From positions 4,898,001-4,962,000 of the forward strand of contig NC_088786.1 in the NCBI RefSeq assembly GCF_949628265.1: a stretch of 64,000 nucleotides of DNA, written 5' to 3'. Shown one piece after another: positions 29,993 through 64,000 of this stretch. This stretch comes from Cloeon dipterum. Taxonomy: Eukaryota; Arthropoda; Insecta; Ephemeroptera; Baetidae. The notes beneath the pieces are model-generated. The model was not told where the DNA came from. It did not search any database and saw only the letters and a program-made list of their open reading frames with translations. Both the position numbers and the translations under genes were made by a program. How positions within the stretch are numbered: position 1 is the first letter of the stretch; the number at the start of each line of letters is the position of its first letter.

Positions 29993-61144
<31,152 letters not shown>

Positions 61145-63662
61145 TCACTTATTCACCTTGGCCGCATCCTGGTGAGTTTGGTAGCGAGGTTTGCTGTGTG
61201 TGAACGGAAGGTATCGATACCGAATCATGTGCTGCAACAGATAAATAAAATAATTAGTTAGTAAAAATCCAGGCATAGAAGAGAAAATAAATTAAAACGC
61301 GAAAACAAATTATTTCAATATAATGTTTATAAAAACTTTGTGGAAGCAAAATTGAGCTAGACATAGCAGGATCAAAATGGGTTTAACTGATAATATAGTA
61401 ATATTTGAAGACGCGAGTAAATGCCAATGACTCATCTGATTTCACGTCAGATTCAACTCACAACAGCATTCCAGATTTCTTAAGTGATAAAATGACTGAG
61501 CAGGAATTTTACAGCAAACATTTTGCAGCCATTCTAACCGCGATCTGATTATGCATCAAAAATAATTATGCTCATCAAAGAGCTTTCATGTCTAGAAAGC
61601 ACAGTACAGAAGCAGGATTGCCCAGCTCAGCGTTAAATAAAAATCCGGTTTTTGAACAGATTTAACCTAGAGGCCATAACCAGCCGCACTGCGCCTAGCC
61701 AGCCGGAAAATTTTGGGTCGCCAGCCGTTGTGAATCTGGCTAAGCTGCGCCAGCCGGCGGTGGTAAAGGTTCAAAAATTAAAAAAGCAGGAGAAAAAATT
61801 CCTTTGACCCTTCGGGCCGTTATGCACAATCACTCTTCATGTTTAAAATATTATGAGCTGTGCCAGCCACCTGTGAAAATAGCCCGGCCAAAAAAATTCG
61901 GCTGAGCCGGTCCCGCCAGCCACCGCTTTAATCTTACATCTCACGGCTAAGACCTCTAGTTTAACATGAAATCATAGTGACGCAATTTGCTTCATGCTCC
62001 AAGCGCTACCAACTTATGCAAAAGCATGAGTTTTTTGAAACTGTAAAAAAAAGATTCAAACCTTGATCTGTTTCTTCATCGTGATGCAGAACAAAGTGAT
62101 GAAGTACATGACAAGGATTGGCCAGAACACTGGGATGTTGAAGCAGTCGAACATGGTGCACACCATAGCAATCAGGGTGGACTTGCTCACCGAGTACCAG
62201 AATTTGAACTCGGGCAGCCGCCGGATGAAAGGTCTGAACTCCTCGTTATTACTTGTTGGCAGCTCAGGACCGTCATCTGCAAAGTTCAGTCGATTAATTG
62301 ATCTGTTCCCACTTTGCTGTTGTATACATTACCATCAAATTCTGATAAAGCTGGATCTATTTTTGGTGATAAGAATGCTATGAAGAGGTTGAGGTGGTAA
62401 ATTCCCAGTGCATAGGTCACAATGTACCATCCCTGACAAATCAAAGAAAGCAATATTAATACTCGATTCTCAACTCACATTGAAAAAACAATTGTGCGGT
62501 TAATGTGCTTTGTTATAATAACAGATCCAAATAAAAGTCGGATGCGTTAGTTGTGTTACCTGCAACCAAAAAACTCTAGCAAGGAAAAGGAGAATTAGGA
62601 TGATTGCGAAAATCCATCTGGCGTTTGTGTAGGGAGTAACATCATCCAGTTTCTTCTGGTACATCTGCCAACACAAAACACACAAGGGTAAACACGTGCA
62701 CATCTACCTGACATATCAACACCCTGAAGACCAGGGTGAACAAAAGAGCCCCAGTGATGGCCCAGCGAACTTTAGTGTGCGGCGTCCAATCGTCTAGTAG
62801 CAGTTGATGCCACTAAGAAATCAGCCACACCACAAAGAGAGACCATCATTCAGTAAGGTTGTCATTTTTGTCAATACAGACAATATTTTTCAAATTTGAA
62901 TGACATGATTGTTTCATTTTCTGATTTATTTATTAGTAGCCTACTTTCTTTTAATATTTTGCTGTTTCCATTTATTTCACGTAAGAGATTTTAATGGATA
63001 TTATGCGATGAAAAAACTTAAATGAAGATCCTTTCTATATAACAGAAGTGTGAAACAAATTTTTAGTAAGTTTATAGGTCAAAAGGAACTTTGAGCTCAA
63101 ATGCTCACAAAATTGACCGCCATACAAATTAAAATCATTAACTCTGCTCTACTTACGTTCCTTAGACTAAGAGTAAAACTTTTAAATTTTCATAGTTTAT
63201 AGTAGCTTCAAAATTATAAAACCCAAAATTCAAGCGAACCAAAAAAAATCGGTTTTATATTGGAAATCGTGTTTTTAAAGTCTTCAAGTGACAACAATTT
63301 ATTATGATTAATGATTCTCACTTAAAAAAATACATACATATGTGTTTGTCAATAATCACAAAAAATGACTTGTCGAAAGAGATTAAAAAGTGAGAAAGGG
63401 CACCACTTCTGGCATACACCGTGTTAAGACTTTACTCTGTGAAGAGCAAACCCGAAGTGGGCCCATAAATTTCTTGTTCAAGATATAATATCTCATGAAT
63501 ATAATGCTGACCTCTAACTGCTAATTTGGTGTCTAATTAACTTTGAATCTTTACGATAGGAACATATTATAACAAAAAATTTCATAATACCTGTTGAAGT
63601 CTTCTCCAAGCCAGGACGACCGCGCTTGGTCCTGAAGTCCCTTCTGCCGGTTCTTGCAACAT
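61145..63662 (-). CDS. Rer1: Rer1, ER/Golgi retrieval receptor, with two alternative exon 2 copies
   Basis: Rer1 is a four-pass Golgi protein that returns unassembled or escaped membrane proteins to the ER by reading polar residues in their transmembrane segments. Exons in gene order are 63662-63591, then either 62812-62708 (2a) or 62664-62560 (2b), then 62432-62333, 62276-62062 and 61231-61145. With one exon 2 the protein is 192 aa, close to the 196 of human. Strong family blocks are GWYIVTYALGIYHLNLFIAF, NNEEFRPFIRRLPEFKFW, NIPVFWPILVMYFITLFCIT, and HMIRYRYLPFTHSKPRYQ. The N-terminus is short (MLQEPAEGTSGPS). A 5'UTR exon boundary is at 63682. Including both exon 2 copies would add a supernumerary membrane segment, so they are presumably alternatives. 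Confidence 0.95.
61666..61960. mobile_element. TTAA-flanked MITE in Rer1 intron 4
   Basis: A 295 bp non-coding element has inverted ends: CCTAGAGGCCATA on the left and the complement of ACTAGAGGTCTTA on the right. It is flanked by TTAA on both sides (61662-61665 and 61961-61964). TTAA duplication and CCTAGA-like ends are typical of piggyBac-related elements. The interior is rich in CCAGCC/GCCGG motifs. A degraded relative lies in a melted intron near 23.8-24.1 kb. Confidence 0.65.
62560..62664 (-). CDS. Rer1: Rer1 alternative exon 2b
   Basis: This is a second 105 bp exon of the same phase, 43 bp downstream of 2a. The acceptor is TTTTGTGTTGGCAG and the donor CAG/gtaaca. It encodes MYQKKLDDVTPYTNARW, then a hydrophobic segment ending RVFWLQ. 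It contains the same LDD.TP.T..RW core as 2a. The methionine at its start is not needed as an initiator, because exon 1 joins in frame. Confidence 0.85.
62708..62812 (-). CDS. Rer1: Rer1 alternative exon 2a
   Basis: This is a 105 bp exon, phase 0 at both ends. The acceptor TGATTTCTTAG has a CTGAT branch-like site upstream; the donor is CAG/gtagat. It encodes WHQLLLDDWTPHTKVRW followed by a hydrophobic segment ending RVLICQ. It aligns without gaps to the family's first conserved block (human IYQSWLDKSTPYTAVRW) and to exon 2b, with 13 of 35 residues identical. Confidence 0.85.
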
Positions 63663-64000
63663 TGTGTTCTCTACACTGGGTCCTGAAACGAAATAAAATA
63701 TTGTTAATTTACTAGCTGGATTTCTCTAAATATTTTTCAAACGTGGAAAGTTTCTTTGTATTGCAAGTGGGAGTGTCCACATTCAATATTTTTAGTGTCA
63801 TTACATATTTCCCGGTGAATTATTCACACAAGGCATACCGCTGATTCGATTGATTTATCGACGCAAAGCCAGTAAAACGCTCAAGTCGCTCCACAAATTA
63901 ATTATCAGCGATAAAACGGTGGTCTTCCCCTCAATTTCCGACACAAAAATCGAACTAACACCTCTGTAGCATGACAAAGGCAGGGTTTCAACGGCAGGAA
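63663..64000. promoter_or_regulatory. Rer1: Rer1 5' UTR and upstream region
   Basis: A - strand acceptor (TTTCAG/GACC at 63683/63682) indicates that the coding start lies in an exon spliced to an upstream 5'UTR exon somewhere right of 63700. No core promoter motif is convincing, and the window ends here. Confidence 0.4.

Follow-up and report, generated by a model that had tools for sequence, protein, structure and literature searches.

Tandem 105-nt exons of the mayfly Rer1 gene, probable mutually exclusive alternatives for the first membrane span

Rer1 is a Golgi protein that returns stray membrane proteins to the ER. In the mayfly Cloeon dipterum its gene occupies the minus strand at the end of the window, the whole 64,000-nt stretch of DNA that was analysed and to which all coordinates refer. 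The features are listed here in the order of transcription:

63591..63682, minus strand: exon 1 (coding), with the ATG at 63662-63660, a phase 0 end and the donor CAG/GTATTA; the database protein P0003 begins here
62708..62812, minus strand: exon 2a, 35 residues (WHQLLLDDWTPHTKVRWAITGALLFTLVFRVLICQ), type A, encoding the approach and first membrane span
Splice borders of exon 2a, minus strand: weak acceptor TTCTTAG and donor CAG/GTAGAT
62665..62707, minus strand: spacer between 2a and 2b, 43 nt, with one yUnAy branch-point match, its A at spacer position 19 (window 62689)
62560..62664, minus strand: exon 2b, 35 residues (MYQKKLDDVTPYTNARWIFAIILILLFLARVFWLQ), type B, encoding the same segment as 2a; the copy found in P0003
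62333..62432, minus strand: exon 3, GWYIVTYALGIYHLN..., common to the 2a and 2b forms
62062..62276, minus strand: exon 4, common, preceded by a 56-nt intron (62332-62277)
61157..61231, minus strand: exon 5, common, spliced to exon 6 or read through to a stop (AAKVNK)
60425..60457, minus strand: last coding exon, PEAAPLVAEI and stop, as in P0003 and P0001

An acceptor preceding exon 1, read by eye, implies a putative untranslated exon upstream, and the gene has a second variable end between 61231 and 60425 (minus strand), where exon 5 can either run on to a stop (AAKVNK) or be spliced to the last exon, PEAAPLVAEI. P0003, annotated as "protein RER1 isoform X1 [Cloeon dipterum]", equals the 2b form of the window in every letter, with the last exon spliced on.

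Exons 2a and 2b are each 105 nt long, in phase 0 on both sides, bordered by AG and GT and separated by 43 nt. Their products align without gaps, with 13 of 35 residues identical and the pattern LDD.TP.T..RW common to both. A sequence-only reading of this DNA had reported the pair with these coordinates, length, phase, gap and alignment, all of which we recovered. It had also claimed that both exons match the same block of the Rer1 family, and this agrees with searches of the Pfam Rer1 profile with each block alone: 2b matches profile positions 9-43 (E 3.4e-07, 30.7 bits) and 2a positions 10-43 (E 5.3e-05, 23.6 bits, slightly below the family cut-off of 23.9). As whole proteins, the 2a and 2b forms match PF03248 at E 3.2e-73 (245.5 bits) and E 4e-75 (251.7 bits), respectively, against the same cut-off. 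The nucleotide identity of the two exons is just 48/105, which suggests an old duplication. That 2a is a chance pseudo-exon was rejected by 200,000 shuffles of its sequence, none of which attained either the ungapped BLOSUM62 score of 58 or the 13 identities. A DNA search of the genome with the block found one place, and a six-frame protein search, in which the best candidates only were scored, gave six matches, all within the Rer1 gene; a second Rer1 gene was rejected on this basis.

Two full-length protein searches retrieved 4,792 relatives each, of which the best 120 were compared per search; both lists, with two further matches of a region search, comprise 145 distinct proteins. Among the matches listed, nine species are represented by a pair of proteins identical letter for letter outside the 35-residue block: the stick insect Bacillus rossius, the caddisfly Arctopsyche, and seven beetles (Photinus, Brassicogethes, Harmonia, Rhynchophorus, Anoplophora, Onthophagus and Gonioctena). 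Nine of the ten same-species pairs compared show between 9 and 15 identities over the 35 residues of the block, and the tenth, a second Rhynchophorus pair (P0054/P0055), shares one block sequence and varies at the C-terminus only. Mutually exclusive exons would yield such pairs, which are annotated or predicted isoforms seen as proteins alone. Mutual exclusivity, which the sequence-only reading had proposed, thus appears strongly supported, and independently of the mayfly, because the paired proteins of nine other insects differ in this block alone. The same reading had pointed to other insects as the place to look for a second copy of the block, allowing that it might be absent in all related species; the pairs refute such an absence.

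We therefore read 2a and 2b as mutually exclusive alternatives of one Rer1 exon, encoding the cytosolic approach and first membrane span, and put the probability of this reading at roughly 0.82. Hydropathy analysis gives four peaks for the 2a form, four for the 2b form, five with both exons and three with neither. Exclusivity would matter for this reason: use of both exons or of neither is predicted to produce five or three spans in place of four, flipping the part that follows and directing the tail to the wrong side.

The annotated products of the Cloeon gene are 2b alone (P0003) and, in the gene model P0001 (261 aa), 2a followed by 2b, joined in frame. The Cloeon 2a block occurs in P0001 only of the 145 proteins, and is there joined to 2b. 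Taken at face value, P0001 would mean that both exons are constitutive and that Cloeon Rer1 carries two first spans in series. The Timema model P0017 likewise reads A and then B in one protein, in the Cloeon order; exons of 105 nt keep the frame when both are used, and frame is no bar to joining 2a with 2b. Judging from its label, P0001 probably belongs to the Cloeon gene set of 2020, the genes of which, in a passage of PMC7250882, are described as Augustus predictions guided by hints from transcripts and splice junctions, a further point in favour of constitutive use. Against this stand the five hydropathy peaks that would result, the exact agreement of P0003, bearing 2b alone, with the 2b form of the window, and the nine species carrying one block or the other. 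Moreover, a section of PMC3923563 reports that the annotations of Drosophila species apart from D. melanogaster label many potential exclusive exons constitutive, Mhc and Dscam exons among them. Since exclusive exons are known to be misannotated in this way, it would seem from P0001 that 2a is recognised as an exon, which falls short of showing 2a-2b joining in RNA; that the joined model is itself such an annotation fault is unproven. We consider constitutive use of both exons very improbable. The in-frame join from 62708 to 62664, which the sequence-only reading had set against exclusivity, exists as the gene-model prediction P0001 and not as reads.

A separate concern is whether 2a is a rare or decaying copy in the mayfly, while the swap operates in stick insects, beetles and caddisflies. 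Among the matches listed, none of the proteins labelled Cloeon, Neocloeon or Ephemera has 2a alone. A Cloeon protein of this kind, if present, would rank high enough for the best 120; clustering at 90% could conceal it, and the two Cloeon forms are 88.9% identical, while the Bacillus pair is 90.2% identical and yet kept as separate entries. The acceptor of 2a is weak (2.4 bits vs 8.0 bits for 2b), the exon is divergent, with an end branch of 2.65 in the block tree described below, and positions 26 and 51, which are Y and F in at least 90% of 91 aligned sequences, are H and L in 2a. Decay is countered by the open reading frame of 2a and the integrity of both its splice borders, by its retention, with 2b, of D31, P35, R40 and W41, invariant in the 91 aligned sequences, and by the acceptance of 2a as an exon by a gene-prediction pipeline. 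Between the window and P0001, 3 of 234 residues differ and none of these falls in 2a or 2b, which, from so small a sample, adds slightly to the same side. We regard a rare or decaying mayfly 2a as unlikely. Cloeon P0003 and Neocloeon P0004 have the same 35 residues in exon 2b, and their other 164 residues contain 15 differences; both proteins are named "isoform X1" and may have further isoforms.

The sequence-only reading had also proposed that spacing itself prevents splicing of 2a to 2b. The 43-nt spacer contains a single yUnAy match, TTTAC, whose A falls 18 nt after the first base of the 2a donor. PMC7969005, in the part that treats this arrangement, gives a steric limit of about 50 nt from donor to branch point and attributes the exclusivity of the OGDH exons to branch points at 25-41 nt; a passage in a human survey (PMC5740500) finds the <50 criterion satisfied by 57 clusters (9%). 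Enforcement of 2a/2b exclusivity by spacing is plausible because the lone branch-point match in the spacer, a motif match and hence a candidate, is situated 18 nt from the 2a donor and under the threshold of ~50 nt. Joining would be blocked if this site is too near the donor for both to be engaged simultaneously. A U12-type incompatibility of the two exons was rejected, as inspection by eye showed GT-AG borders and ordinary donors.

Exclusivity might instead be imposed by regulated repression or by pairing of intron RNA, mechanisms which, in passages of PMC3923563 and PMC7969005, are known from other insect exon clusters. On the same side, the 264 kb scanned contain 40 short-intron candidates of 38-49 nt, Rer1 among them. 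The layout of the spacer argues for the contrary: its adenines are confined to positions 3, 5, 11, 19 and 42, and both remaining branch-point matches for 2b fall within exon 2a, upstream of that exon's donor. Regulated exclusion is in our estimate possible, if doubtful, and a steric constraint by spacing is preferred.

The claim about spacing had been accompanied by the observation that the gap was shorter than any intron reconstructed in the window, the shortest being 51 bp. Scans of intron length over 264 kb were noisy and no lower limit of intron size is readable from them: in the first, bins of 50-59 nt held 10 candidates vs about 3.2 expected and the bin of 40-44 nt held 1 vs 1.6; in a further scan the 40-49 nt bins held 5 and 5 vs 3.0; and at the lowest threshold the bins of 50-64 nt held 13, 22 and 13, and those of 30-49 nt 11, 11, 12 and 8, each vs 4.8. 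Three short candidates were inspected closely, and two of them have longer alternatives, of 51 and 61 nt. The intron of 51 bp is, at a guess, probably that at 34625-34575 (minus strand), where a putative short intron has a choice of two donors separated by 9 nt, the second of which allows a reading of 42 nt at the same place. The proposal on spacing gains from the position of the branch-point match. Elsewhere in the window, at 9698-9302 (minus strand), the frame downstream of a possible 43-nt intron appears to encode the mannosyltransferase ALG12.

The age of the duplication was approached through the blocks themselves. A block tree was built from 63 rows, comprising 59 single blocks, the two blocks of P0017, and Cloeon 2a and 2b, and representing 60 of the 145 proteins. 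Copies tend to cluster by type across orders in this tree, with weak support (4 of 59 inner branches starred, from 35 columns). An A-versus-B block score trained on beetles, from which P0082, having no block before the motif, and P0110, a damaged gene model, had been excluded, was abandoned because it reflects beetle peculiarities.

Within the 11 pairs, four columns distinguish the types: W9 occurs in 10/11 A and 0/11 B blocks, L24 in 11/11 A and 1/11 B, A20 in 0/11 A and 11/11 B, and A29 in 0/11 A and 10/11 B, the columns having been chosen post hoc from a set in which 7 of 11 pairs are from beetles. Cloeon 2a and 2b agree with their type at all four. Beyond the pairs A20 lacks specificity: of 31 other insect rows, 29 carry it, irrespective of their type at column 29. 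Classified by column 29, and among the matches listed, flies, a flea, wasps, an ant, a bee and the dragonfly Ladona appear as type A, and Orthoptera, a termite, most Hemiptera, lice and thrips as type B; this one-type pattern could stem from loss of the other exon or from the cut of each list at the best 120.

Two accounts of this distribution were weighed, a single old duplication and separate duplications in several insect orders whose copies converged in character. Approximately unbiased (AU) tests of separate duplication rejected none of the five groupings (mayfly, p 0.355; Bacillus with Dryococelus, 0.223; stick insects, 0.116; caddisfly, 0.569; beetles, 0.141), and for the caddisfly the tree held to separate duplication scored higher. 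On the other side, besides the weak grouping by type across orders, a permutation test of label consistency over four orders (mayfly, stick insects, beetles and caddisfly) gave a joint p of 0.00055. Its single comparisons ranged from p 0.0026 for mayfly with stick insects, through 0.018 for stick insects with beetles and 0.050 for mayfly with caddisfly, to 0.11 for both beetles and stick insects with caddisfly and 0.46 for mayfly with beetles. An orientation score with one order left out of training was 50.4 bits for the mayfly (p 0.007), 44.1 for the stick insects (p 0.013), 21.9 for the beetles (p 0.17) and 21.0 for the caddisfly (p 0.19); unequal divergence of the copies could inflate both the permutation and the orientation tests. 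When the blocks are set against 10 non-insect rows, the changes of type A fall at columns 24 and 29 and those of type B at columns 9 and 20. Each copy thus has changed residues common across orders, which speaks against separate duplication and partly answers the caveat of unequal divergence.

Because the type-specific residues agree across four orders (the joint p given above), we favour one old duplication: the pair likely arose once, before mayflies diverged from the remaining winged insects. Repeated duplication with convergence is, by comparison, rather improbable.

Rer1 is regarded as a single generic receptor for polar residues in the membrane segments of its clients, and yeast work reportedly points to its fourth span as the client reader. 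Descriptions in PMC5383021 and PMC11335228 indicate that retrieval works through polar or charged residues within client membrane segments. The exchanged block includes R54, present in at least 90% of the 91 sequences and kept in both copies; the residue preceding this conserved arginine is bulky in type A and mostly alanine in type B. An exchange of 2a and 2b may possibly alter client choice, packing or localisation. That it changes client choice in particular, as the sequence-only reading had ventured, is a tentative suggestion, on the doubtful side. AlphaFold, run on P0003 with the 91-sequence alignment, returned a model too poor for spans to be counted (mean pLDDT 63.8, pTM 0.29), and we draw no argument from packing because of this; a search of solved structures gave one weak, unrelated-looking match (E 0.049).

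It may be speculated that the two spans tune, by tissue or stage, which client segments are held, or else the packing or localisation of the receptor. In its fullest form, which we offer as conjecture and think less probable than not by a clear distance, the ancestor of winged insects would have had one gene and two Rer1s, with type A and type B spans choosing clients by tissue or stage, and several orders would have kept one of them. Were an old exchange of the first span confirmed, insects would run two receptor versions off one gene, and it would be directly testable which part of Rer1 reads clients. The 43-nt spacer also offers a very compact natural case for testing whether exclusive splicing can be enforced by spacing.

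The sequence-only reading knew of no description of such exons for Rer1. This holds for the literature searched: among the matches listed, no paper was so titled, or so opened its abstract, as to treat exclusive exons or insect isoforms of Rer1, and the word Rer1 is absent from the main texts of PMC3303723, PMC3228551, PMC3923563 and PMC5740500. It does not extend to the protein databases, where isoform pairs are already present for other insects. In passages of two papers that mention it, RER1 figures just as a regulated gene and as a qPCR standard.

The arrangement can be compared with several systems. Human RER1 undergoes exon skipping or cryptic splicing after depletion of EJC factors or RNPS1, according to passages of PMC7470949 and PMC9178013; the likeness is that an orthologous gene is alternatively spliced, whereas those events are mis-splicing in depleted cells and the passages name no duplicated exon. 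The nine paired insects exchange these same 35 residues within an otherwise identical Rer1, as proposed for Cloeon, but there the exchange is known from proteins and not from DNA, and the mayfly has no listed 2a-only protein. Alpha-tropomyosin and OGDH 4a/4b resemble Cloeon Rer1 in that two alternative exons lie side by side and a branch point, a candidate in the case of Rer1, falls within ~50 nt of the upstream donor; the branch points of those genes are mapped, whereas the 43 nt of the whole Rer1 spacer provide a motif match. Like the Dscam, Mhc and N-cadherin clusters, the exclusive exons of which are conserved among insects (in part according to PMC3923563), the Rer1 pair appears to have been conserved among insects; in contrast to those clusters, which encode surface or muscle proteins, Rer1 is a general sorting receptor and the part exchanged is a membrane span.
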